Assembly: GCA_018067045.1 (NCBI GenBank)
Contig: JAGPVL010000015.1
Coordinates: 62,001-126,000 of the forward strand
Source of the DNA: Gammaproteobacteria bacterium
GTDB lineage: Bacteria > Pseudomonadota > Gammaproteobacteria > Pseudomonadales > Alcanivoracaceae
Direction: 5' to 3'
DNA: 64,000 nt
Made by a program: the position numbers and the translations under genes. This document shows, piece after piece, positions 1 to 22,886 of this stretch; positions within the stretch are counted from its first letter, which is position 1; every line of letters begins with the position of its first letter. Under the pieces are notes generated by a model, which saw only the letters and a program-made list of their open reading frames with translations, made no database searches and was not told the DNA's origin.

Positions 1-657
1 CTACCTGAAAAGTTTTGAAGGGAGAGGGGCGCTCTGCGCTCCCCATTCAAGGCTCGTGCTAGAGCGTTCGTCGGCGATTTTTTGTGGCTTTATCGATGGT
101 GCTGCGTGTTGATCAGTTTCATTGGTAGCACTTATGTTTAAATATGTTTTTGGAAGCAGCTTTCTAATTTGTATGAAGGCTTTGGCATGAGAAAAACAAA
201 AAGGAGATAAGACGGGCTGCCACATGCAGAGAGAGAGGCTTCCCGTTATTAAATCGACAAGCTACATTCTAGCGTTAGATTCAAGAATTCGAACGTATTT
301 ATCTTCTCCCAGTAATGAACCCTCGCAGTACCCCTTTCCGTTTTATGCGGGCAGCTTTTGACTTTATTGTGGTAAAAAGATCTCAAGTTGATGGCTTTTT
401 ACGTGCTGCCAATGTGATATTGCTCGTTGTTCTTTTGTAAGTGCACAGTTTGGTGAACGCTTATCCCCATTCAAGAATTCCATATTTTGCTAAATTTCCC
501 CGCTAATTCGATGTTTTTTTGATACTTGTGAACGACTTTTCGTTGATAGTTCTAATTGTAAATTATCCTATTTACCTTGCTAAGTAAGTCTTTCTTCGTT
601 GTATAGTAATTAAGTGCTACGTAAGTGCACATTTCAAATCTGGCATGGAGAGCCTAT
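1..657. other. Gene-poor leading stretch
   Basis: No gene is supported here. A 74-codon leftward reading frame (1-225) has no recognisable domain and ordinary composition, so I treat it as chance. The stretch is A/T-rich near its right end, as expected for the promoter region of the OmpA-family gene at 658. An 11-bp word, GTAAGTGCACA, occurs twice (437-447 and 621-631) and ATTCAAGAATTC occurs twice (about 281 and 470). Neither is long enough to claim as an operator. Confidence 0.6.
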
Positions 658-1749
658 ATGCGTTTTGACGCGGTAAGTGGAAAAACTTTAACTCTGTTGA
701 CCGGCGGACTGTTAATTCTCTCATCGACAGCTCTGGCCGAAGACGACTCCTTGCCTGCAGTGGGCGTGACCCCGCAGTTCATCGCCTTTCTTCCCTTTCA
801 TATTAATGCTGATCGAGATCGCGGCGCTTCAGAAGGTCGTGGCTTTCGCGCTATCTATGGCCGTTCTTTGGCAGAGCACTGGTACTGGGAAAGTGATGTT
901 TTCGGTGCGGTTCTTGAAACGGGTAAAGATACGATTACCGACTTTTACCAGCTCGGCGCAGAGACAGGATTGTCTTGGTCGTTGTATGAGCGCAGCCGCA
1001 CGCAGTGGACGCCTTATGCGATCGGTACGTTGGGTGCGGTGTTTAATGATGTGCAGCCGGACTCTGATGATGATAGTTCCTTTACGTTGGGTGCAGGTTT
1101 AGGGGCGGTCAGTAAAAGCCTATTTGATAACGGCTTGAAGGTGCGTGGCGAAGTGCGTTATCTGTTTGATACGTTCAAAGAAGATTTTGGTGATGTGCAT
1201 TGGTCTCTTGGTTTGGAAATTCCGTTAGGCGAAATTCGAACCGTTGAGCGAGTTGTGTACGTTGACCGCACGGTTGAAGTCGCAGTTGAAAAAGTTATTC
1301 GGGTTTCTGATACGGATAGCGATGGTGATTCGGTTCCGGATAGTCGAGACCAGTGCGAGAACACATTGAGTGGCGCGCGCGTTGATGCAACAGGTTGCAT
1401 TATTGATGCGCAAACCGTGACGTTTAATACCATTAGCTTCCAGCCGAGCTCTTCTGAGCTTACCTATGGCTCGAAGAAAACGTTACTGCCAGTCGCTGAG
1501 TCATTCAATAGTCAAAAAGATTTGAAGATTGAAATTGCCGGCCATACGGATTCAATCGGAAGCGCTGAATACAACCAGGGTTTGTCGCAACAGCGAGCGA
1601 ACTCTGTCCGGGAGTTTTTTATTGATCAAGGTATCGAAAGCAGTCGCTTGACCGCTGTTGGTTACGGTGAAATGCAGCCGGTAACTGAAAACGATACTGA
1701 ATCTGGCAGGGCAATGAACAGGCGGGTGGAATTCCGTTTACTGAAGTAA
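658..1749 (+). CDS. OmpA-family outer membrane protein
   Basis: Predicted 363-aa outer membrane protein. I chose ATG 658 over the upstream in-frame GTG at 625 because GGAG lies 7 bases before it and it gives a clean signal peptide ending ALA-ED near residue 27. Residues about 30-190 look like an OmpA-type beta-barrel of alternating aromatic and polar strands. A short acidic stretch around residues 222-245 (DTDSDGDSVPDSRDQC) is one thrombospondin type-3-like calcium motif. The last ~110 residues are an OmpA/MotB peptidoglycan-binding domain with the HTDSIGSAEYNQGLSQQRA motif and a final NRRVEF. By family knowledge it would tether the outer membrane to peptidoglycan. The next gene also carries type-3 repeats, 77 bases downstream, so the two are probably co-transcribed and may act together at the surface (inference). 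Confidence 0.88.
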   Translation: MRFDAVSGKTLTLLTGGLLILSSTALAEDDSLPAVGVTPQFIAFLPFHINADRDRGASEGRGFRAIYGRSLAEHWYWESDVFGAVLETGKDTITDFYQLGAETGLSWSLYERSRTQWTPYAIGTLGAVFNDVQPDSDDDSSFTLGAGLGAVSKSLFDNGLKVRGEVRYLFDTFKEDFGDVHWSLGLEIPLGEIRTVERVVYVDRTVEVAVEKVIRVSDTDSDGDSVPDSRDQCENTLSGARVDATGCIIDAQTVTFNTISFQPSSSELTYGSKKTLLPVAESFNSQKDLKIEIAGHTDSIGSAEYNQGLSQQRANSVREFFIDQGIESSRLTAVGYGEMQPVTENDTESGRAMNRRVEFRLLK

Positions 1750-1826
1750 CCCTTGGGACAACTGGATCTGTCCCGCACATTTTAGTTTTTGGATAAATGC
1801 GGGGGGACCATGGCAGGAGCGCCAAT

Positions 1827-4136
1827 ATGGATATCCGCAAAGTACTTAAAAAAGAGAAATGGTTTTTAGGTTGTCTGTTTGTTTTGTTCGCATTTTTATT
1901 GGCGAGCTGCGATGCAGATATGAATTCAGACGCGTTGTCGTCGACGCCTGCCGTTGCGCTGTCGGACACCGACGGCGACGGAATTGCCGATGACTCGGAT
2001 AACTGCCCGGTTATTGCGAATTCGGATCAGGCTGATCTGGATGGCGATGGCATCGGTAATGTCTGCGATAGTGACCGCGATGGCGACACGATTGTAGATG
2101 GCTCGGACAACTGTCCATTGGTGCCCAATCTCGATCAAGCTGATGCCGATATGGACGGTGTTGGTGATGTCTGCGATACCAATACTGATTCAGATGGTGA
2201 TGGTGTTGACGACGGTGTCGACAATTGCCCAACGGATGCTAATGCTGATCAGGCCGATCTTGACGCAGACGGTACCGGTGACGTCTGTGATAGCGATGAT
2301 GATAACGATGGTATTACCGACGTCTTAGATCTCTGTCCGCTGGTTGCGGATGTGGATCAACTCGACACGGACGGTGACACAATCGGCGACGCTTGTGATC
2401 CTGACGATGACAATGATCTTGTCCTTGATCCTCTCGATAATTGCCCTCTAAACGCCAATTTATTGCAAACAGACTCAGATAATGATGGCTTGGGTGATGC
2501 GTGCGATGACGATTCGGATGGTGACAGCATTGCTGATGACGTGGATAACTGCCCAGCCACTGCAAACGTCGCACAAACCGACACCGACAACGATAGTTTC
2601 GGGGATGCTTGTGATCTCGATGATGACGGCGATGTGATTCCTGATCTGATCGATAACTGCCCGCTAATCAGCAATCCTCTGCAATTGAATACCGATCTCG
2701 ACGCTAACGGCAATGCGTGTGACAGCGATACGGATACCGACGCTGATGGCATTGATGATGAGCGTGACAACTGTCCGTTGGTGTCCAATGTGTTGCAGCA
2801 GGATGTGGATGGTGATGGGATTGGTGATGCTTGCGACAGCGATGTTGATGGCGACAGTGTTGATGATGGCAGCGATAACTGTCCGCTGACGGCTAACGTT
2901 GAGCAGGTCGATACTGATACAGATGGCATTGGTAACGCTTGTGAAAACGATATCGATAATGACGGTGTCGATGACGGTGTCGATAACTGTCCGCTCATAA
3001 GCAATGTAGGCCAGGAAGACTCCGACGGCGATACCGTCGGTAATGCCTGTGATCTTGATGACGACAATGATTTGATTCTCGACTTACTCGATAACTGTCC
3101 GTTGGATGGCAATTTTGGGCAAGCTGATGCGGACGGTGATGGCATGGGCGACGTATGTGATGCCGATGCGGATAATGACGGTATCGCTAACCTGTCCGAT
3201 AACTGTCCTCTGGTTGCTAATAACGATCAGCTCAACAGTGACGCGGATGCGGAAGGTAATGTCTGTGATGCCGATGATGATGATGACACCGTGTTAGATG
3301 TCGATGATAACTGTCCGTTAACGGCGAACACGGATCAGGCGGATGCAGACATGGACGGCATTGGTGATGTCTGCGACACCAATAGCGATGTGGACGGTGA
3401 CGGTATCGAAGATGGTATCGATAACTGTTCTGCGATTGCTAATGCTGACCAGCTGGATACCGACAACGACGGTCAAGGCAATGTTTGTGATGGCGATGAT
3501 GACGGCGACTCAGTAGCGGACGTGAGTGATAACTGTCCATTGGTGAGTAATTCGGATCAGCTTGATACAGATGGCGATGGTGTTGGTGATGCGTGTGATA
3601 GTTTATTCAGTTGCAATGCTGCTACCACCTATCAGCCCTTGTTGGCCACATCTGGCGTCAGCGCCGAGGGCGATACAGGGTTCCTCTGTATTCTGTGTTC
3701 GGTTTCCAATGTTGCGCAGGTGTTGGACGATGACGGCGCCGGAGGCAGTAATGCAACGACGGCAGCGCAGTTATCTACGCCAGTCGGGTTGCTTGGAAGC
3801 GGTGCTTGGATCGATGTGACTAGTCCAACAGATATTAGTGGTAACAATCGCATTGGTTTTGTTATCAGCGGTAACAGTGCGTTGCTGTCGCTGGATTTGT
3901 TGGAGAATGCATCCATTACCTTGTTCGATGGTAATACAGAGGTGGCAAGTTCCAGCGCGGGTGGATTGCTGTCCTTGGATTTGCTTGGCTTGTTTGCAGG
4001 CACCAATCAGACCTTCGTTTATGCTGATACTGCGGTCACCTTCGATCGAGCACGGATTGAATTCAGCTCAGTAGCAAGTGTGTTGTCGACGCTGAATGTG
4101 CACAGTAGCTGTGTAGGGGCGTCACCACCGCCTTGA
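1827..4136 (+). CDS. Thrombospondin type-3 repeat lipoprotein
   Basis: Predicted 769-aa calcium-binding lipoprotein. ATG 1827 is preceded by AGGAG (1815-1819) with 7-base spacing; the longer frame from 1797 lacks this. The signal peptide ends in the lipobox LLASC with Cys28, followed by Asp at +2, which in E. coli retains lipoproteins in the inner membrane, so its final location is uncertain. Residues about 45-590 are 15 copies of a type-3 repeat (DNCPL-x-x-N-x-x-Q then DxDxDGxGDxCD). The last ~175 residues form a separate cysteine-containing domain, beginning near FSCNAATTY, which I do not recognise. It may be a beta-sandwich (inference). A terminator follows directly. Function is unknown; calcium-stiffened rods of this type often act as adhesins or spacers. 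Confidence 0.85.
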   Translation: MDIRKVLKKEKWFLGCLFVLFAFLLASCDADMNSDALSSTPAVALSDTDGDGIADDSDNCPVIANSDQADLDGDGIGNVCDSDRDGDTIVDGSDNCPLVPNLDQADADMDGVGDVCDTNTDSDGDGVDDGVDNCPTDANADQADLDADGTGDVCDSDDDNDGITDVLDLCPLVADVDQLDTDGDTIGDACDPDDDNDLVLDPLDNCPLNANLLQTDSDNDGLGDACDDDSDGDSIADDVDNCPATANVAQTDTDNDSFGDACDLDDDGDVIPDLIDNCPLISNPLQLNTDLDANGNACDSDTDTDADGIDDERDNCPLVSNVLQQDVDGDGIGDACDSDVDGDSVDDGSDNCPLTANVEQVDTDTDGIGNACENDIDNDGVDDGVDNCPLISNVGQEDSDGDTVGNACDLDDDNDLILDLLDNCPLDGNFGQADADGDGMGDVCDADADNDGIANLSDNCPLVANNDQLNSDADAEGNVCDADDDDDTVLDVDDNCPLTANTDQADADMDGIGDVCDTNSDVDGDGIEDGIDNCSAIANADQLDTDNDGQGNVCDGDDDGDSVADVSDNCPLVSNSDQLDTDGDGVGDACDSLFSCNAATTYQPLLATSGVSAEGDTGFLCILCSVSNVAQVLDDDGAGGSNATTAAQLSTPVGLLGSGAWIDVTSPTDISGNNRIGFVISGNSALLSLDLLENASITLFDGNTEVASSSAGGLLSLDLLGLFAGTNQTFVYADTAVTFDRARIEFSSVASVLSTLNVHSSCVGASPPP
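1962..3605 (+). repeat. 15 thrombospondin type-3 coding repeats
   Basis: Fifteen in-frame repeats of about 35-39 codons, each with a DNCPL-like core (variants LDLCPL, DNCPV, DNCPT, DNCPA and DNCSA) followed by alternating Asp positions that bind calcium in the family. The DNA is degenerate between copies, so the array looks old rather than recently amplified. Confidence 0.9.
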
Positions 4137-4282: not shown

Positions 4283-5962
4283 TTATATCCCTCGCACTAT
4301 ATGCGACCCGATGAGTGCAATAATCAGTGTGGCGCTGATCCACTTCCAGATATTAGTTTCTTTCTTTCGCTCAACTTCTTCCCAGTCCTGGTTATCTTTG
4401 CCCGTTAGTGCGGCGCGAAACTCTGCTGCGTCGGAGAATCGATCTCTTGGGTTGTATGACAGCGCGCGATCAAGAATGGCTTGGAGCCAGCGTGGTGCGT
4501 AGCGGTTGCTATTATAGATAGGGGGCAGTGGGGTTGTTTTCATGATGGAGTGCTGGCCATTCCACGGTGCGTTGCCGGTGATGACTTCGTACAGCATTGC
4601 GGCCACGGAAAATAAATCAGTTTGCTCGCTTGGGCGAAAGCCATTTAGCAGTTCGGGCGCGGAATATTGGCGAACGCCAAGCGGGGTGCTGTTGATCTGG
4701 TTGTCATAATCGATAATGCCACGTGGATGGGCGCTGCCGAAGTCGATAATTTTGACGCTGCCGTCGCGTAAAATCATGATGTTGCCGGGTTTAATGTCGG
4801 CGTGAATGACGTCGAGACGATGCAGCGCGCGAAGGCCATTGAGTATTTGATCTGCCAGCGACAGCACTTCTTGAATCGGTGCTTGTGGGTGCAATGTTTG
4901 CCACTTCTGCAAGGTAATGCCGTCAATGTACTCCATAAGGTAGTACAGGCACGAGCGCGGTCTGTCCGGGTATTTTACCTTGACTAAATTAATGTGGTGG
5001 ACGCGAGCGCAAATCCAGCTTTCCAAAGACAAACGTTCGATTGCGCTGTGATCGTCTAGTAAATTGACGGACGGCGCTTTAAGTGTCATGTGCTCGCCGG
5101 TGTCGTTGTCTTTGACAAGATACAAGTGCGAGCGATTACTGGCATGTAGTTCGCGCACCACGGTCAGTCCGTCAATTTGCATGCCGGCTGACAGCGCGGG
5201 TGGGAAGGCAAGTTGGCTTAACGCAGTGAGTGTATCCGCAGCGCCAGGCTCGGGGACTTCGACCACGTCAATGATTTGGCATGACAGGTTATCATCTGCT
5301 CCGCTATCAAGCGCGGTGTCGATCAGCACTTGGCATATCATTTCAATTTCACCGCCGCCGCGCAGTATGCCTTGAATACGAGCAGGGGAGAGTACTTCGT
5401 GAATACCGTCAGTGGTCAGCAGATAACGATCGCCCACTTCAATCGTGTCACGTAGATAATCGACGTCGAGGCGCGCATCCATACCCATGGCGCGAGTGAG
5501 GTATTTCTTCGAGCCAACTTGGCGGCTGTGATCTTTGCTTAGGCACTCTAAGCGGCTTTTGCGCAGCCGCCAAACACGCGAGTCACCCACTTGAAAAATA
5601 TGCGCAGTACGTGAACGCAGAATTAATAACGACAGCGTGCACAGGTGACCGCCATGGACTTGGGCATTACCGCTGAGCCATTGGTTTAGTGATTCGAGTA
5701 CGCGCTGCGCCGAGCGTGGTACAGACCAAAGCGGTGGTGTTGAGTAGTAATCATTGATAAAGCCAATCACCGCCGACTCGGCTGCGACCCGCGCTGCACT
5801 GGCGCCGCTGACGCCGTCGGCAATGGCGGCGACGGCACCCTTGGTGCGCAGTGAACTGTCGGTGGGAAGATGCATGGCAACCGCATCTTCATTCTCCGGC
5901 TTAGTGCCGGCGCGAGATTCTTGTGCGCCGAACAGCAGTAGCGAGGGCGTTGGCTTCTTCAT
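4283..5962 (-). CDS. Fused PP2C phosphatase / Ser-Thr protein kinase
   Basis: A 559-aa protein with opposing activities in one chain. Residues about 1-245 are a PP2C-type metal-dependent phosphatase: ED near the start, AIADGVSGA, GDSRVW, LLTTDGI and SGADDNLS hold the metal-binding aspartates. Residues about 265-525 are a Hanks-type kinase: HADIKPGN is the catalytic loop (HAD in place of HRD) and IIDFGSAH carries the DFG motif. The chain ends in one membrane helix (residues ~537-556). The gene lies 52 bases downstream of the nitrate transporter gene and is probably in its operon. The same fusion sits beside nasA and nirB in Pseudomonas. A role in regulating nitrate uptake or assimilation by phosphorylation is inferred; the target is unknown. 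Confidence 0.9.
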   Translation of the reverse strand: MKKPTPSLLLFGAQESRAGTKPENEDAVAMHLPTDSSLRTKGAVAAIADGVSGASAARVAAESAVIGFINDYYSTPPLWSVPRSAQRVLESLNQWLSGNAQVHGGHLCTLSLLILRSRTAHIFQVGDSRVWRLRKSRLECLSKDHSRQVGSKKYLTRAMGMDARLDVDYLRDTIEVGDRYLLTTDGIHEVLSPARIQGILRGGGEIEMICQVLIDTALDSGADDNLSCQIIDVVEVPEPGAADTLTALSQLAFPPALSAGMQIDGLTVVRELHASNRSHLYLVKDNDTGEHMTLKAPSVNLLDDHSAIERLSLESWICARVHHINLVKVKYPDRPRSCLYYLMEYIDGITLQKWQTLHPQAPIQEVLSLADQILNGLRALHRLDVIHADIKPGNIMILRDGSVKIIDFGSAHPRGIIDYDNQINSTPLGVRQYSAPELLNGFRPSEQTDLFSVAAMLYEVITGNAPWNGQHSIMKTTPLPPIYNSNRYAPRWLQAILDRALSYNPRDRFSDAAEFRAALTGKDNQDWEEVERKKETNIWKWISATLIIALIGSHIVRGI

Positions 5963-14945: not shown

Positions 14946-17900
14946 ATGGAAAATTTTCTTCGCTTTTGCTTGCTGGCCGCATTGGGTGCTTGCCTAGCGC
15001 CTGCTCACGCTCAGGTAACCTACTATGGCACCGGCGGTATCAACAGTAACATCCTCTACAATGGCAACTACGGTGGTGATGCCTGCACCTTTTGCCACAG
15101 TGTTGGTGGTGATACGACATTGGGCGACGCTACCTATCAGCCGTTCGAAACTGAAGCTCAGGTATATGCCTATACGATCGACACCATGGAAAACTATGTC
15201 GACACGGAGTATATGCCGTTAAGTGGTCCGTTAAATCAGGCCGGCCAGAATCTCTTTGCTGCGTGGAAGGCGGACGGCTACCCGACCAATGCTGCGCCGG
15301 AGGTGACGACGCGAACAGAGTCAGGGGTGAGTAAATATGCTGTGACCCTGCGTGGTTATGTGCAGGAAAACGGCTCAAACAGCACAGTTCGCTTTCGTTA
15401 TCGGATTGGTGCTGGCAGTTACACTTATGTTAGCGCGACCTCGCCGTCAGGAAGCGGTGGGGACGGTGTTAACCAGTCCGTGACAGCGGCCGTTTCTGGC
15501 CTCACGTGTGGCACTACTTATAATTATCAATTCCAAGCGGATAACAGCGTTTCTGGATCTTACGTCTCCGGGGCGACAGAGTATTTCACCACAAGTGCCT
15601 GCCCGACGATTACGCAAGGCGCTTCTGTTACCGAGAATATTAGTGAAGATGAGTCGCCGACGCCGTTTTCATTGACTTTGAATGCTACGGATGGTGATGG
15701 AAGCACGTTGACGTGGAGTATTTTTACGCAGGCAGGTAATGGCACGGCAACCGCGTCCGGTACCGGCACCAGTAAAGCGATTGGTTATAACCCTGATGCA
15801 AACTACAGCGGCGCTGACTCCTTTGTTGTGCGCGTCACTGACGGTACAACGCCAGACTACATTACCGTCAACGTTAATATGGCCGCGGTTAATGATGCGC
15901 CGGTTATTACACAAGGTGCGTCGGTCACGGTGAACATGTCTGAAGACAGTTCACCGACGGCGTTCAGTCGTACGCTCAATGCGACTGATGTTGAAGGTAG
16001 TACCATAACCTGGAGCATTTCGTCGGTTGCCAGCAACGGCACGGCGACGGCGTCAGGCACAGGCGCCAGCAAGGCGATCAGTTACACGCCGAACGCGAAT
16101 TACAACGGCACCGACAGTTTTGTCGTGCAGGTAAGCGACGGGTCGCTTACCGATACCATCACGGTGAACGTCAATATCGCGGCTCAGAATGATGCGCCGG
16201 TCATTACTCAGGGCGCCTCGGTACTTGTGAATATGTCTGAAGACAGTTCACCGACGCCGTTTAGCCGCACGTTGAATGCCACCGATGTGGAAGGCAGCAC
16301 GCTGACGTGGAGTATTTCTTCCGTGGCCAGTAATGGCACCGCGAGCGTTAGCGGCACAGGCACAAGCAAAGCGATTTCCTATACCCCTACGGCAAACTAT
16401 AACGGCAGTGACAGTTTCAATGTGCAGGTGAGTGATGGCTCGTTGACCGATACGATTACGGTCAATGTTTCTATCGCTTCGATTAATGACGCGCCGGTAA
16501 TCACGTCTTCGCCATCAACCTCGGCAACGGAAGATGTGCAATACAGTTATACCGTCGCGGTTACCGACCCTGACGACGCGGGCTTCGGCTCGGGACTGAC
16601 ACTGGCACTCAATTCTGCCACCGACGGTAATGCGGCACCGCTTGCGGGCGTCAGTTTTAATACCAGTACTGGGCTGCTGACGTTTACGCCGACGAACGCT
16701 ACCGTGTCGCCACTGAATTTTCAGGTGCAGGTGGAAGATGGTGACGAGGATTCGTCAGGGCCGACAGTACAGAGTTGGGCGGTGTCGGTGGATTCCGTCA
16801 ATGATCTGCCCGCTATTAGCACCACGGCACCGACCGCGGCAGCGGAAGATACTTTGTACACCTATACGGTGGGCGTGTCTGATCCAGATGACGATAATAA
16901 CGGCACCGATTTGATCTGGTCGCTCAGTGGTGAGCCCATGGGTATGACGATATCCAGTGTGGGCGTGATTAATTGGACGCCGACCGAGGGCGTGCTGACT
17001 TCAGGTACGGTTACCGTGTCAGTGGAAGATGGCGATGCTGTTCCCGATACCGAAAACTTTACCGTTACGGTAACCCCCGTCAATGATCCTCCCGTGATCA
17101 CCGCGCTACCGAGTGCCAATGCGAGAGAAGAAACCCTGTACCAGTTTGATGTGCTGGTTTCAGATCCCGATGACAACTCGTGGGCATTTTCGTTAAGCGG
17201 GGCGCCGACAGGCATGACCATCAATAACAGCGGTCGTATCAGCTGGTCGCCAGCAGAAGGCGTGTTAGCGTCGGGTACCGTCACGGTGATTGCGGCGGAC
17301 AGCGAACCGCTGCAGGACAGCGCTACATTCGCGATCACTGTCGATGCAGTGAATGATCAACCGTCGATAGTATCGTCGCCGGTGCTGACTGCGACCGAAG
17401 ACACGCTGTATCAATATCAGCTATCGGTGAACGATGCGGATATTCCGGCGGATAGTTTCAGCTACGATCTTACCGTTTCACCTACGGGCATGTTGGTGTC
17501 CAGCGGTGGCTTGATTCAGTGGACCGCCGGTGAGGCTGGTCCGTCGCAAGTTACGCCCTATAACGTCAGTGTGACGGCGCGCGTGCGCGACGGTCTCGAA
17601 GACGGTGTGACGCCAGCACTGCAGCCTTACATCATAAGCGTTACGCCCGTGAACGATTCACCGGTGATTACCGATGAGAGTCTGCAGCAGGTGGAGGAGT
17701 TATCGGCGTTTAGTTTGGCGTTGTCGGTGACGGATCCGGATGACGTTAATAACGGTACTGATTTGAGCTGGAGCACGGTCACAGTGCCAGGCACGATGTC
17801 GCTAAACAGTACCGGCACGCTTGGCTGGACGCCGCCGGAGGGCAGCTCCGGTGTTACGGGCGTGGCTTTCACCGACTATTCTGTGACCGTGCAAGTGGCG

Positions 17901-19904
17901 GATGGCGGAGATGACGGCTCGGTACCGGATCAAATGACGTTTACCTTGCGCGTCACCAAGCTCGATGCCGATGCCGATTTGGTTGCCGACTACAACGACA
18001 ATTGCCCCAACGGCGCACTCGATCCAGCCGATGCCGACGATAATCCCGATCAGACCGACACTAACAGTGATGGCGAAGGTGATCTGTGTGACATCGATGA
18101 TGATGGAGACGGAATCGAAGACGTGGCCGAGGTGGCAAACGGGCTGAATCCTAAGGATTCATCTGACGCTGGGTTGGATCTAGACGGCGATGGTCTGACG
18201 AACCTAGAAGAATTTAACGCTTGTGTTGGCTCCGGAGACTATCCGGACTGCTCCAATATCGGTACGGATTCGGTTGCACCAATGATATCGCTGGTGTCGC
18301 CGTTGGTGCTCCCCTCGACGGGATACCTAACAGTGATCACACCCGTGGTCAGCGCCACCGATGGCAATGAAGGTGATACGACGGTCACGCTGGTTGATCA
18401 GGACGGAACCGCGGTGAGTGTGGGGGCGGGTAGTCGTTTTTCCTTGCGCCCTGGCCGCCATAGCTTCGTCTGGGAATCTAGCGACAGTGAGATGAATACA
18501 GCACAGCGCACACAGGTTATTGATGTGTTGCCAAGACTGTCGCTGACTAACTCACAAACCCGAGGTGAAGGGCAGTCAGCCTCTGTGCAGTTCAGCCTCA
18601 ATGGCGATGCGCCGAGCTATCCCGTCAATATCTATTACAGCTTTTCCGGTAGCGCAACGGACGCAGACATAGCGCCAGTGAATCGTACGGTCAGTATTGC
18701 TAGCGGCCAGCAAGGCAGCGCGACGCTGACGATCATTGATGACGGTCCCGGTGAAGGTGACGAAGAGCTGGTACTTACGGCGACAGGGCACAGCAATAAT
18801 ATGGTTCTTAGCCCAGCCAGCACGCATCGGCTATTGATTGTCGAGCGCCAGGTGGCGCCGGAAGTTGCACTCTCTGTGAGTCAAAATGGACGCAGCGGTA
18901 ATCATCTTTATGTCGGTGATGGCAGCGTACAAATTTCGGCTATTGCTAGCGATGCGAATGACGATGCTCTCAGTTATAGCTGGAGTGCTGTGCCCGCAAT
19001 CACGTTTACGGGCACTGATACGCTGCAGACATTTGACCCGTCTGCGTTGTCTGGCTTGTACACCCTGACGCTGGACGTTAGCGATGGCGTCGATACCACG
19101 GCGCAGCAGGTGTCGGTGCTAGTCGATGCAGGCGTGCCGCCAGTGTTGAGTGCGGGTAGCGATCAAGATGGCGACGGCATTGCTGATGCCAGCGAAGGCG
19201 ATAGTGACGCCGACGCCGACGGCATTCCGGATTATCTCGATGCGCTTGACGAACCTTTTTCGCTACAGCTGGCTGCCAGCGTTGATGGCATTGATCAGAA
19301 CTCTTTGTTGCACACGAATGAGGGGCTGCGATTGAGCGTTGGGAGCGGGGCGTTGTTTAACGGCAGCGAGGGCGCTCTACTGTTTAGCGGTACGATGCTG
19401 CCTGACACGAGCCATTCAATTGTCGGTGCGATGTACGACTTTGAAATTCGCGGACTTAATGAAGCGCAGCGAAGTGCCCATGTGGTGGTGCCACTGATTC
19501 AGCCGATTCCACCGCGGGCGGTGTACCGCAAACTCAATACTGCAGCGGGCGTCTGGTCGAACTTTATTGAGGATGGCAACAATGCGATTGCGTCGGCTGC
19601 TCGGGTAAGCAGCGGTGAGTGTCCGGCAATCAATTCAGCCGACTGGCAATCGGGCTTGAAAGCCAGTGTCACCTGTGTGCGCTTGTTGATGAATGATGGC
19701 GGCGCCAACGATGCAGACGGTGCCGTTAACGGCGTGATCCGCGATCCAGGCGGCGTCGCGGTTGCAAGAGAGGTAACAAAGGACACTGCAGTGCCATCGT
19801 CCGGTCCGAATGATGGCGCCGGTGGTTTGGGCTGGTGGTGGCTTGCGCCACTGCTGGCAACGGGCGCGCGGCGTCGTCGGGGGAAAAACGGATTTAACGC
19901 ATGA
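14946..19904 (+). CDS. Giant surface protein: cytochrome c head, GlyGly-CTERM-like tail
   Basis: A 1652-aa secreted protein of unknown function. Order: signal peptide (to AHA-Q, ~residue 23); a small class I cytochrome c-like domain with CTFCH at 47-51 and a candidate axial Met in EYMPLSG; a fibronectin III-like domain (~105-215); three near-identical 98-residue cadherin/VCBS-like repeats (~219-513); more Ig/cadherin-like domains to ~1005; a type-3/EF-hand-like calcium stretch (~1007-1090); a Calx-beta-like domain (~1198-1300); a PKD-like domain (~1305-1395); a choice-of-anchor U-like domain (VYRKLN, NDADGAVNGVIRDPGGVAV). The tail is GAGGLGWWWLAPLL then ARRRRGK, matching a GlyGly-CTERM sorting signal cut by rhombosortase. 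Its stop overlaps the start of the beta-barrel gene by four bases. Electron transfer or surface attachment is inference. Confidence 0.85.
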   Translation: MENFLRFCLLAALGACLAPAHAQVTYYGTGGINSNILYNGNYGGDACTFCHSVGGDTTLGDATYQPFETEAQVYAYTIDTMENYVDTEYMPLSGPLNQAGQNLFAAWKADGYPTNAAPEVTTRTESGVSKYAVTLRGYVQENGSNSTVRFRYRIGAGSYTYVSATSPSGSGGDGVNQSVTAAVSGLTCGTTYNYQFQADNSVSGSYVSGATEYFTTSACPTITQGASVTENISEDESPTPFSLTLNATDGDGSTLTWSIFTQAGNGTATASGTGTSKAIGYNPDANYSGADSFVVRVTDGTTPDYITVNVNMAAVNDAPVITQGASVTVNMSEDSSPTAFSRTLNATDVEGSTITWSISSVASNGTATASGTGASKAISYTPNANYNGTDSFVVQVSDGSLTDTITVNVNIAAQNDAPVITQGASVLVNMSEDSSPTPFSRTLNATDVEGSTLTWSISSVASNGTASVSGTGTSKAISYTPTANYNGSDSFNVQVSDGSLTDTITVNVSIASINDAPVITSSPSTSATEDVQYSYTVAVTDPDDAGFGSGLTLALNSATDGNAAPLAGVSFNTSTGLLTFTPTNATVSPLNFQVQVEDGDEDSSGPTVQSWAVSVDSVNDLPAISTTAPTAAAEDTLYTYTVGVSDPDDDNNGTDLIWSLSGEPMGMTISSVGVINWTPTEGVLTSGTVTVSVEDGDAVPDTENFTVTVTPVNDPPVITALPSANAREETLYQFDVLVSDPDDNSWAFSLSGAPTGMTINNSGRISWSPAEGVLASGTVTVIAADSEPLQDSATFAITVDAVNDQPSIVSSPVLTATEDTLYQYQLSVNDADIPADSFSYDLTVSPTGMLVSSGGLIQWTAGEAGPSQVTPYNVSVTARVRDGLEDGVTPALQPYIISVTPVNDSPVITDESLQQVEELSAFSLALSVTDPDDVNNGTDLSWSTVTVPGTMSLNSTGTLGWTPPEGSSGVTGVAFTDYSVTVQVADGGDDGSVPDQMTFTLRVTKLDADADLVADYNDNCPNGALDPADADDNPDQTDTNSDGEGDLCDIDDDGDGIEDVAEVANGLNPKDSSDAGLDLDGDGLTNLEEFNACVGSGDYPDCSNIGTDSVAPMISLVSPLVLPSTGYLTVITPVVSATDGNEGDTTVTLVDQDGTAVSVGAGSRFSLRPGRHSFVWESSDSEMNTAQRTQVIDVLPRLSLTNSQTRGEGQSASVQFSLNGDAPSYPVNIYYSFSGSATDADIAPVNRTVSIASGQQGSATLTIIDDGPGEGDEELVLTATGHSNNMVLSPASTHRLLIVERQVAPEVALSVSQNGRSGNHLYVGDGSVQISAIASDANDDALSYSWSAVPAITFTGTDTLQTFDPSALSGLYTLTLDVSDGVDTTAQQVSVLVDAGVPPVLSAGSDQDGDGIADASEGDSDADADGIPDYLDALDEPFSLQLAASVDGIDQNSLLHTNEGLRLSVGSGALFNGSEGALLFSGTMLPDTSHSIVGAMYDFEIRGLNEAQRSAHVVVPLIQPIPPRAVYRKLNTAAGVWSNFIEDGNNAIASAARVSSGECPAINSADWQSGLKASVTCVRLLMNDGGANDADGAVNGVIRDPGGVAVAREVTKDTAVPSSGPNDGAGGLGWWWLAPLLATGARRRRGKNGFNA
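15603..16485 (+). repeat. Three 294-bp tandem domain repeats
   Basis: Three consecutive 98-codon units, each starting near TITQGAS or VITQGAS and ending near the conserved ND. Units two and three are the most alike, with long identical runs (NMSEDSSPT, SISSVASNGTA, VQVSDGSLTDTITVNV). This points to recent internal duplication or gene conversion, while the flanking Ig-like domains are diverged. Confidence 0.85.
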
Positions 19905-20803
19905 ATGGATTATTGCGGGTGACATTTGTCGCCCTGTTATCGGGGGCAAGCGTCACTGCTGTGGCGCTAGACATGGAAAACTTCACGGTTGATGGCGATG
20001 CGACTTTTGTCTGGGATGACAACGAAAGCCAGGCGCAGTGGGAGCGTGATCAGGTGGAAGACCGCTCATTGATTGTTGGCGCACAGCTTGGCTATGGTCA
20101 TTTGCTATCGCAGACATCAATGCTGACCGGGTCGGTGTTCGCTGAGCAGAAAATTATGGATAAAGTCGGTCAGCTTGATCGCACTTCGCTGGGCCTAAAA
20201 GGCGCCTATCGCTGGCAGCCCAGCTCTGCTTTTACAGCGCCTACTATCGAGTTCAACATTGCGTGGCAGGATGATAACTATGGCGACGAGGCGCGCGATA
20301 GCGGTGTGTTGACGAGCCAGTTATTTGTTACTCGCAGACTGACTGATCGCATTACGGGTACCGCTGGGCTGCAGTACCGCAGTCGTGATTCCAGCGGCAG
20401 CGTCTGGGATTTGGACGATGCGCGCATTTTTCTCAATGTTGACTACGGCATCAGCGATGCACTGGCTACATATTTTACTTATAGCTATATCCAAGGCGAC
20501 AGCTCTTCTTCCGCGCAGCGCAGTTATTGTAATGGCGCAGCCGCCACCGATATCTTGCCGCTTATTAACGTAGCAACTGAAATTGAGGCGGATGAGGCCT
20601 TTAACGAATACCATTGTGGTGACTGGCTTGCATATCGACTCGATGCGCATTCCCACACCGCAGTATTGGGTGCTAACTACGGATTTTCTCACAGCTTTTC
20701 CGCAGATCTTTCATTTCTGTATGCCGACGTTATCTCCGATGACGATGCAGATATTTCTTACCAGCGCCATATGATTCGCGCCAGCCTGCTGAAGAGGTTC
20801 TGA
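19901..20803 (+). CDS. Outer membrane beta-barrel protein
   Basis: A 300-aa protein with a signal peptide (to about VTAVA-LD, residue 22-23) and alternating aromatic/polar strands throughout (LGYGHLL, TGTAGLQYRSR, YFTYSYIQGD). It ends in ASLLKRF; a terminal Phe is the outer-membrane insertion signal of beta-barrels. It starts inside the stop codon of the giant protein gene, and the next gene begins one base after its stop, so all three are translationally coupled. I do not recognise a specific family. At this length about 12-16 strands are possible. A role as the membrane sleeve or anchor for the haem proteins on either side is inference. Confidence 0.75.
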   Translation: MNGLLRVTFVALLSGASVTAVALDMENFTVDGDATFVWDDNESQAQWERDQVEDRSLIVGAQLGYGHLLSQTSMLTGSVFAEQKIMDKVGQLDRTSLGLKGAYRWQPSSAFTAPTIEFNIAWQDDNYGDEARDSGVLTSQLFVTRRLTDRITGTAGLQYRSRDSSGSVWDLDDARIFLNVDYGISDALATYFTYSYIQGDSSSSAQRSYCNGAAATDILPLINVATEIEADEAFNEYHCGDWLAYRLDAHSHTAVLGANYGFSHSFSADLSFLYADVISDDDADISYQRHMIRASLLKRF

Positions 20804-20804
20804 G

Positions 20805-22886
20805 ATGAAACCACTAATCAGATCACTCACCTTGCTTGTCGTTTTCGGTTTATTGGCGGCGTGTAATGAACGTGGCGATACCGAGGAATCGTCGAACCCC
20901 GTTACTGTTGAAACACCAAACAGTTTTCTGCGGTTTTTGAATAATCAGCGCGATATTGTGCTCAGCGATGACTGGACCGATGCCTACTATTACGTTGTTG
21001 ATCCCTACTTGGAGCGGCAGACACTGGCAGGTTGGAAGGCGGTCAACGGATACGATAATTGCGACGATGAGCTGCATATTATCTTCCGTGATGCGAAAGA
21101 TCTTGGCTACGGTCGCGATATGTATATGTGCAAGCACGAGCCATCAAGTCAATTCCCGGCCGGTCGCTTCGCCGTGTTCGTGCGCAACTTTATTGTGAAG
21201 GTGGAAAGTGGCGACCCCAGTAATTACGGGCCAATAAATGTTGAGGCCGCTGTTGAAGCGAATTTGACTTATCACGTTGGCACCAACGCGATTGAGTTTT
21301 CCCCGCTGGATCCTACCGATGCCTCGCCTAGCGCAGAGAAGGTGGCGAAGTTTTATACCTTTACGCCGGCGGGGAATTTGAATCGCTCGCTAGATCTTGA
21401 TGGACGTGGAAAGAAACCTGTGCCGCAGCCGTGTTTGCTTTGCCATGGCTCGACGTTGTTGCCTTGGGACACAGAGGCCGTGATGGCTTCTGCCACGCCT
21501 TGGGAGTTTCCGGACGTGCAGCAGACGCTGCGCTCTGCTAAGTACAATCAGCTGGAGTTGGAATCATTTGATTATTCCACTCAGCATCCGAGCTGGAGTC
21601 GCGGCAATCAGGAAGAACGATTACGTCGTTTTAATAACAATATTGTTGATACCTATATGGAAATGGCGGCCCGGGATAAGACTAACCCTGAGCATTGGTG
21701 TGCGGATTTCGCGATCGAATTATCGATGGGGCGTTACGACGCTGACGGCGAAGTCGATGCGCCAGCAAACAGCTGTGACAGCTATGCTTCTGTGCTCTAC
21801 AGCGGGCTTTACCAAGAAGACTATGTGCCGCGAGGCTGGCGCCAGACCGCAGAGCGGCCAGAAGGTGTCGAGACATTATTTAAGAGAGTCGTTGAGCCGC
21901 ACTGTATTTCATGTCATTCGCTGCGTGGCACCGCGGCGGGCAAACGCGTTACCGATACGACCCCGCAGCGGCGTGGCAATGCGGTTAATTTCGCTAGTTA
22001 TGAAGACTTTATTGGTTATGCAGACATTATTGAGGAGTATGTTTTTCGCCGTGGTGTAATGCCGTTGTCGTTGCGTAACTACCTCGATTTCTGGGATGAC
22101 CCAGCCGATAAGCCGGCTCTGCTGGCGAGTTTCTTGCCGGGTTTTGATACCTATACAGCCTCTGGTGCAGTGATTGAGCCAGGGCGCCCAAGGGCAAAAA
22201 TTGGTGAGGATCGTATCGCCGTGTCACCCTTGACGCTGGATGCAACGCCGAGCAAGTTCGCGTCAAGTTATCAGTGGCAACTTATTGAAGGGCCACTTGG
22301 CGCCAATGCCGTGTTTTCCTCTTCGCGCGATGCTCGCACACTGTTCAGTACTGATATGGATGGTGATTACACCGTGCGTATGACAATTGTTAATATGCTC
22401 GGCGTTGACCGCCAAGACATCGTTGTTACGATTGATTCGAGTATGTCGCCAACGCAGAACGAGTTGAACTTCTATGATGATATTAGGCCGATTTTGCAGC
22501 AGCCGGATCCATCGCAGACGAATAAGCGTGAAGCTTGCACTAATTGTCATAACAGCGTCATCGCGCCGACCAGTGCGCTCTACAGAGGCATTCCAGTTTA
22601 TTATGACGATGCCGTTGATGACCCATTCGATCCGACCGATCGCAGCCTGTACCGAGACGTTCTCACCCGTGTTGATCTGGTGGAGCCGGAGAACAGTATT
22701 TTGTTGCGTAAACCGACTCGCGATCAACACGGTGGAGGCGTGGTGCTAGATCTCGACGTGCCCGGTCATGCGGCAACACGTGCAACCATTCTTAACTGGA
22801 TTCGTGGCGGCGCTCTATGTTTTGTCGGCGATCGCACGCTTCGGCCTGATGAAGGTGAGATCAACGAAATTTGTCCGATACCGTGA
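20805..22886 (+). CDS. Tri-haem lipoprotein with PKD-like domain
   Basis: A 693-aa lipoprotein: signal peptide ending LLAAC with Cys20 and Asn at +2, compatible with outer membrane sorting. Three CXXCH c-haem sites are visible: CLLCH at 210, CISCH at 367 and CTNCH at 578. Between the second and third lies a PKD/Ig-like segment (~470-555; YQWQLIEGP, DGDYTVRMTI). The C-terminal part with its single haem site resembles the planctomycete-type cytochrome domains in which a CxNCH motif follows an ILQ segment. It ends with a strong terminator. Together with the two preceding genes it makes a haem-barrel-haem set. The electron donor and acceptor are unknown. Confidence 0.82.
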   Translation: MKPLIRSLTLLVVFGLLAACNERGDTEESSNPVTVETPNSFLRFLNNQRDIVLSDDWTDAYYYVVDPYLERQTLAGWKAVNGYDNCDDELHIIFRDAKDLGYGRDMYMCKHEPSSQFPAGRFAVFVRNFIVKVESGDPSNYGPINVEAAVEANLTYHVGTNAIEFSPLDPTDASPSAEKVAKFYTFTPAGNLNRSLDLDGRGKKPVPQPCLLCHGSTLLPWDTEAVMASATPWEFPDVQQTLRSAKYNQLELESFDYSTQHPSWSRGNQEERLRRFNNNIVDTYMEMAARDKTNPEHWCADFAIELSMGRYDADGEVDAPANSCDSYASVLYSGLYQEDYVPRGWRQTAERPEGVETLFKRVVEPHCISCHSLRGTAAGKRVTDTTPQRRGNAVNFASYEDFIGYADIIEEYVFRRGVMPLSLRNYLDFWDDPADKPALLASFLPGFDTYTASGAVIEPGRPRAKIGEDRIAVSPLTLDATPSKFASSYQWQLIEGPLGANAVFSSSRDARTLFSTDMDGDYTVRMTIVNMLGVDRQDIVVTIDSSMSPTQNELNFYDDIRPILQQPDPSQTNKREACTNCHNSVIAPTSALYRGIPVYYDDAVDDPFDPTDRSLYRDVLTRVDLVEPENSILLRKPTRDQHGGGVVLDLDVPGHAATRATILNWIRGGALCFVGDRTLRPDEGEINEICPIP

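Follow-up and report, generated by a model that had tools for sequence, protein, structure and literature searches.

The stretch analysed here, called the window throughout, comprises 64,000 nucleotides of contig JAGPVL010000015.1 (our C27) in the 3.3 Mb genome of a Gammaproteobacteria bacterium of the Alcanivoracaceae (GCA_018067045.1). We studied three neighbouring genes on its forward strand, termed A, B and C, which encode a giant exported protein with one haem motif, a small outer-membrane barrel and a trihaem lipoprotein (Table 1). As read from the open reading frames, A and B overlap by 4 bases and B and C are separated by a single base, while the open frame preceding A ends 145 bases before it. 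An earlier note, made from the letters of the window, had pointed to this tight packing and to the character of each product, and its description could be reproduced: the proteins have 1652, 300 and 693 residues; A carries one CXXCH and a plausible Met ligand, both invariant in the six closest A proteins; B ends in Phe and is predicted by its model to fold as a barrel; and C combines a lipobox (Cys20) with CXXCH motifs at residues 210, 367 and 578. CcmF is encoded in the same genome. A scan for promoters and terminators found site numbers no higher than in shuffled sequences.

Table 1. Genes A, B and C of the window and features within them, with the basis or conservation of each assignment.
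Feature	Positions	Strand	Basis or remark
Gene A, exported protein of 1652 residues	14946..19904	+	signal peptide, N-terminal haem motif, Ig/cadherin-like rod, TSP3, choice-of-anchor U, GlyGly-CTERM-like tail
CXXCH of A (CTFCH, residues 47-51), haem attachment site	15084..15098	+	invariant in 6 close A proteins
Met90-Pro91 of A, candidate distal haem ligand	15213..15218	+	invariant in 6 close A proteins
TSP3-type calcium-binding repeats of A, residues about 1007-1089	17964..18212	+	Pfam PF02412, 3.6e-07; limits set by eye from the alignment
Choice-of-anchor U domain of A, residues 1496-1606	19431..19763	+	NCBIfam NF041766, 33.7 bits, cut-off 32
GlyGly-CTERM-like sorting tail of A, residues 1624-1645	19815..19880	+	TIGR03501, 14.3 bits, just under the cut-off of 15.5
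Gene B, outer-membrane barrel of 300 residues, 12 predicted transmembrane strands, Phe end	19901..20803	+	AlphaFold2, pLDDT 92.4
Gene C, trihaem lipoprotein of 693 residues with PKD domain	20805..22886	+	sequence, alignment, fold search
Lipobox Cys20 of C	20862..20864	+	Cys in 35/35 aligned; Asp at +2 in 1/35
Haem 1 site of C, CLLCH, residues 210-214	21432..21446	+	CX2CH in 35/35
Haem 2 site of C, CISCH, residues 367-371	21903..21917	+	CX2CH in 35/35
Met419-Pro420 of C, candidate distal ligand of haem 2	22059..22064	+	35/35
PKD domain of C, residues about 460-546	22182..22442	+	PKD structures, best Z 11.6 (6nz0, root-mean-square deviation 2.3, 87 aligned)
Haem 3 site of C, CTNCH, residues 578-582	22536..22550	+	CX2CH in 31, CX3CH in 3, CX4CH in 1 of 35
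His642 of C, candidate distal ligand of haem 3	22728..22730	+	35/35

The three genes are a genuine conserved gene set. Among the first six homologous loci, five contain the intact trio (L024-L028) in three chromosomal settings, the flanks being those of the window in L024, a second set in L025-L027 and a third in L028; the remaining locus, L029, has a distant relative of C (26% identity) next to another barrel. We then defined a core set as the 35 best of 80 named loci matched by a C profile (L030-L063 and L066), with C above 330 bits, a line drawn after the list had been seen. A six-frame profile search placed B directly beside C in 34 of these 35 loci (all but L057) and an A-type gene upstream of B in 31 (all but L055, L056, L057 and L059). 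The earlier note had named the co-occurrence of the three genes beforehand as a test of its proposal, and these counts demonstrate that they do co-occur. Just below the core line, L064 (260 bits) and L065 (219 bits) are without B and A; both genes are present in the fragment L102, and the rest of the 80 loci below that line gave no B call next to C. The distances among B sequences correlate with those among C sequences (r=0.97 for 26 matched sets including the window), and none of 2000 permutations gave a correlation as high. Across 369 genomes of the class, C is matched in 19; all nine genomes with a strong match also have a B match, while the other ten have weaker matches, and no B was among the neighbours listed at the weak C loci L180-L184 (in G142, G261, G294, G341 and, as its second match, G193). 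We rejected the possibility of chance CXXCH motifs, because the sites of C are kept in 35/35 sequences and the motif of A in 26/26 proteins with an intact N terminus. Judged from this conservation, the haem sites of A and C are under selection.

In C, the two candidate distal ligands, for haem 2 and haem 3, are fully invariant (Table 1), whereas haem 1 has no fully invariant Met or His to pair with, Met106 (34/35) being its candidate ligand. Upstream of haem 1, the 35 sequences share the invariant residues Y61, D66, F94-R95-D96, D99-L100-G101-Y102-G103-R104, E164, D199 and G202. The block from FRD to DLGYGR, which we infer to be paired with haem 1, together with the lack of an invariant Met or His for that haem, is what a surface enzyme might look like. 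C would then be an extracellular or outer-membrane haem oxidoreductase with a catalytic haem 1 and with haems 2 (His-Met) and 3 (His-His) relaying electrons, A would be a tethered partner reaching the substrate and B the anchor, and a FecR-like protein with a cyclase, described below, would serve only for regulation. We consider such an enzyme rather unlikely. Neither sequence nor fold searches gave a significant match to a haem enzyme, the sequence match of C to FoxE being weak (E 0.11); a fold search of solved structures matched the PKD domain alone and was inconclusive for the other parts; the gene context suggests no substrate; and the packing of the invariant block on haem 1 is itself presumed. 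A lipoprotein without Asp at position +2 favours the outer membrane. Since Asp occurs at +2 of the lipobox in only one of the 35 aligned sequences, C is probably placed in the outer membrane.

In the C tree, the nearest named relatives of the window protein are from Alcanivoracaceae. A sequence labelled Pedobacter (L052) falls inside a Moraxellaceae group, which points to a probable error of labelling or binning, or else to gene transfer. A distant and larger trihaem relative of C (1153 residues; L078:4813-11498) follows an autotransporter-type barrel (PF03797) and a caspase-Sel1 protein, and similar arrangements were seen by eye in several of the loci L067-L086.

The haem motif of A is equally persistent, although the domain around it is not. 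Within the core set, the N terminus is intact in 26 A proteins, and each of these has CX2-4CH there, a definition chosen after CX3CH and CX4CH forms had been seen; the strict CX2CH is found in 22 of 26, and two each have CX3CH and CX4CH (L047, L058, L060 and L063). The surrounding domain is class-I-like with Met-Pro in the group of the window and of the choice-of-anchor V type in L045 and L054. In L035, the domain is of the V-like form, as judged by eye, within a supported eight-member group in which the remaining readable A proteins are class-I-like, suggesting that the domain was swapped and the motif kept. As a control, we used 14 A-like giants outside trio loci (L166-L179), chosen from strong matches to the profile of the A C terminus. 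None of the 14 has CX2-4CH anywhere in frame; because four of them are cut on the N-terminal side (L175 and L178 by contig ends, L167 and L177 by gaps), the control for the N terminus is 0/10. Three of the 14 control genomes (G193, G210 and G261) have a B or C match elsewhere. The C-terminal domain of A alone was rejected as a marker of the system, as it matches in 98 of the 369 genomes, with many short partial matches. In Cellvibrionaceae bacterium 1162T.S.0a.05, an A-like giant with one CXXCH (L085:14314-19302) lies near a distant large relative of C.

The C terminus of A resembles that of rhombosortase/GlyGly-CTERM surface proteins, for which work on Vibrio cholerae is cited in PMC10128026. 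The genome encodes a rhombosortase (148 bits, cut-off 84) and the type II secretin GspD (544.5 bits, cut-off 351.35), and two of the six close A proteins match the rhombotarget A model. Unlike those proteins, A has an N-terminal haem motif, and its tail scores just below the cut-off. The C terminus is likely the anchored end, which would put the haem at the far tip. The Ig rod between the haem site and the C-terminal end is without haem motifs and should not conduct, so A would be at most a tethered reactor or shuttle.

With its Ig, cadherin and TSP3 repeats making up most of the protein, and with a C-terminal domain common to surface giants that lack haem motifs, A could also be an adhesin rod held and displayed by B and C, the haems being structural or stress-related. 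An operon with FecR and CHASE2 genes that is reported to regulate biofilm in Burkholderia contaminans (PMC5192318) would be in line with such an adhesion or matrix unit. However, this explanation accounts neither for the N-terminal haem motif, present in 26/26 intact A proteins against 0/14 other giants, nor for the invariant distal ligands in C, and we regard it as very improbable.

The model of B has tied fold matches: a COG4313 channel (Z 17.9, root-mean-square deviation 3.1, 227 aligned), BrkA (Z 17.7), KdgM (Z 17.5) and EspP (Z 17.3). The 12-strand fold is shared with autotransporter beta-domains, and in two of the 35 core loci (L036 and L039), both from metagenome-assembled genomes of Oleispira, A and B are joined in a single open frame, with the hydrophobic tail of A leading into the apparent signal peptide of B. 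In contrast to a classical (type Va) autotransporter, the window encodes A and B in two genes, and both products have a signal-peptide-like start. Two other ideas about B were abandoned. A disulphide loop Cys210-Cys239 was rejected as a universal feature, as it is found in only 15/26 sequences, and SLAM-like lipoprotein export was dropped, because SLAM has an N-terminal periplasmic domain and the model of B has none. Inspection by eye showed five giant surface proteins (L036:4894-9534, L039:4789-9480, L167:7049-11083, L169:6653-11305 and L173:7126-15378) in which the GlyGly-CTERM-like tail precedes, in the same frame, a barrel-like stretch that has a signal-peptide-like start of its own; these are possibly polyproteins cut into rod and barrel.

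The strongest genomic partner of B is encoded outside the window. This partner is FecR-like and begins with a twin-arginine motif; across 16 aligned sequences, a Cys-Thr-Cys motif (Thr163 being nearly invariant), His187 and His211 are invariant. In the 369 genomes, a FecR-like gene is located within 12 kb of 17 of the 22 B matches of at least 50 bits, and within 300 bases of 11. Counted by genome, 17 of the 19 with B at 50 bits or more have a FecR-like gene, compared with 20 of all 369 at 270 bits or more; the FecR profile matches 82 genomes, and only this strong class was counted. In five loci (L146, L150, L151, L156 and L157), B adjoins a FecR-like gene and the stretch has neither A nor C. 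Some of the B-FecR loci, including ones that lack A and C, also contain a CHASE2 adenylate cyclase. Within the core stretches, a FecR-like gene is present in 20/35 and a CHASE2 cyclase in 12/35, and the five Granulosicoccaceae core loci have another class III cyclase; the cyclase domains were tested against Pfam in L025 and L061. The FecR-like gene lies upstream of A in 13 of the 20, downstream of C in six and just upstream of B in one locus without A. Such varied positions around the trio suggest that the link was kept through rearrangement. In both Alcanivorax sp. 1008 and Colwellia sp. 75C3, FecR-like and cyclase genes are found beside the trio. The occurrence of B-FecR without A and C, and of strong C matches only in genomes with B, suggests that B and FecR constitute the core to which A and C were added.

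The FecR-like protein of the window's own genome (G000:C21:238212-238940; L192:8210-8938) has the twin-arginine start, the invariant Cys-x-Cys-Tyr-Gly and the two invariant His residues, and its gene adjoins that of a CHASE2 cyclase. In an uncultured Granulosicoccus (L061:12094-13660), a CRP-type regulator and an FHA-domain cyclase follow the trio, which is a further link of the trio to cyclic nucleotides.

These partners bear on the proposal of the earlier note that the three genes form a distinct outer-membrane redox or electron transfer system. The conserved haem unit bears out one part of it, but the porin-cytochrome-like conduit does not agree with the barrel, the haem count or the FecR partner. 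In a conduit or terminal surface reductase, C and B would carry electrons across the outer membrane and A would pass them on to insoluble acceptors. A barrel and a multihaem lipoprotein in one operon do recall MtrABC, in which a barrel gene likewise stands beside c-type cytochromes; here one of the cytochromes is a lipoprotein, and B adjoins C in 34/35 loci. According to PMC7198977, MtrB forms a 26-strand barrel around a 10-haem cytochrome, whereas the model of B has 12 strands, and four haem sites contrast with 20 haems. The A-B-C operon has no MtrA-type or other further multihaem partner, its three genes totalling four CXXCH motifs; its partner is instead a giant Ig rod, whose single N-terminal haem site is separated from the C-terminal end by the motif-free rod, and the barrel family occurs mostly with FecR, also without A or C. 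The nearest experimental case that we found is that of the Methylococcus surface cytochromes (PMC6281684, PMC4831470 and PMC517821): deletion of MCA0421, a surface c-type cytochrome, lowered the current (PMC6281684). The M. capsulatus cytochrome c553o family resembles the trio in its surface c-type cytochromes and provides a current-production phenotype for one member. The C profile matches 2/38 genomes in one pmoA-bearing family and 0/2 in another, and both matches span the PKD region alone; sequence kinship with c553o is not established. On barrel size, haem count and the occurrence of B without A and C, we rejected the conduit as the leading explanation. An ordinary conduit is unlikely, and we assign a low probability to the export of electrons through the trio to insoluble acceptors.

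We favour, tentatively and at somewhat less than even confidence, a haem device at the cell surface that is built on a barrel-FecR module and most likely serves redox sensing that feeds cyclic AMP (cAMP) signalling. The core of the module would consist of the barrel B and the twin-arginine FecR-like protein, in some genomes next to a CHASE2 adenylate cyclase, and A and C would be its haem-bearing additions. C, the trihaem lipoprotein, would be held at the outer membrane near B, and A would form a long Ig rod with a fixed C terminus and one haem at its N-terminal end. Outside the cell, the surface haems may respond to the redox state, to oxygen, to a mineral or to a small redox-active molecule; B might pass this surface event to FecR as a change of shape or of redox state, and the CHASE2 cyclase could convert the FecR event into cAMP. 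A more specific version is a novel type of haem-based trans-envelope sensor: the surface cytochromes A and C would report external redox conditions via the 12-strand barrel to a FecR-like metallo- or thiol protein exported by the twin-arginine route and to the CHASE2 adenylate cyclase, and A would carry its tethered haem on a rod some tens of nanometres in length. We consider this version doubtful.

Several observations speak against redox sensing through a barrel-FecR module. We infer haem attachment, surface location, the protein contacts, the direction of signalling and the signal itself. The FecR-like gene is missing from the stretch in 15 of the 35 core loci; six of these loci run into a contig end within or next to the set, five belong to the Granulosicoccaceae, and neither applies to the other four (L030, L034, L047 and L055). 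Five of the 22 B matches are not near a FecR-like gene, and in the window's own genome the FecR-CHASE2 pair lies on contig C21, not next to the trio. A is absent from four core loci (L055, L056, L057 and L059), one of which (L057) also has no B. The hypergeometric figure for the co-occurrence of B and FecR, 2e-24, ignores relatedness. Moreover, the FecR profile was seeded partly from B/C loci, and 7 of the 17 linked pairs are seed sequences; the other 10 are non-seed, one of them in the genome of a seed.

The FecA-FecR-FecI system is a case of trans-envelope signalling by a TonB-dependent receptor, FecR and a sigma factor. It resembles the proposed module in having an outer-membrane barrel, FecR and a cytoplasmic output, and differs in that here a 12-strand barrel takes the place of the TonB-dependent receptor and an adenylate cyclase that of the sigma factor, the signalling being putative. 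FecA-FecR-FecI is named in PMC9239204, which also proposes a CHASE2 adenylate cyclase, a phosphodiesterase, a FecR-domain outer-membrane protein and a TPR protein of Campylobacterota as one signalling pathway. Likewise, in the reportedly biofilm-regulating operon of B. contaminans (PMC5192318), FecR and CHASE2 genes occur together, and the interrupted gene was a response regulator. Both clusters, the former of the cyclase type and the latter of the kinase type, share with the present loci a FecR-domain exported protein and a CHASE2 sensor enzyme; the twin-arginine motif, the invariant Cys-Thr-Cys, the link to a small barrel and, in a subset, the two haem proteins set the present loci apart. 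The accessible parts of PMC9239204 and PMC5192318 mention neither a barrel nor a cytochrome partner for the FecR-CHASE2 clusters. With these precedents, the sensor model is the most economical one. In the open-licence literature on GlyGly-CTERM cytochromes, Alcanivorax electron transfer, porin-cytochromes and FecR-CHASE2, we found no listed title or abstract start naming the A-B-C set, and no paper at all that brings FecR together with a barrel, a cytochrome and a cyclase in a gene cluster.

If the sensor model is correct, it would show that haem chemistry outside the cell can be coupled across the outer membrane of bacteria to a second messenger inside, with a relay made of a small barrel and a FecR-like protein instead of a TonB receptor and a sigma factor. 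The analysis also cautions that a barrel next to CXXCH proteins is insufficient for calling an electron conduit. Sensor, enzyme and wire would be distinguishable in Alcanivorax sp. 1008 and Colwellia sp. 75C3 with their trio sets.

Elsewhere in the window, positions 625-4136 encode an OmpA-domain protein followed by a lipoprotein-like protein of 779 residues with TSP3 repeats, which matches the profile of the A C terminus with 304.7 bits and is without CX2-4CH. On the minus strand, positions 4283-5962 encode a single protein that combines PP2C phosphatase and protein kinase domains.

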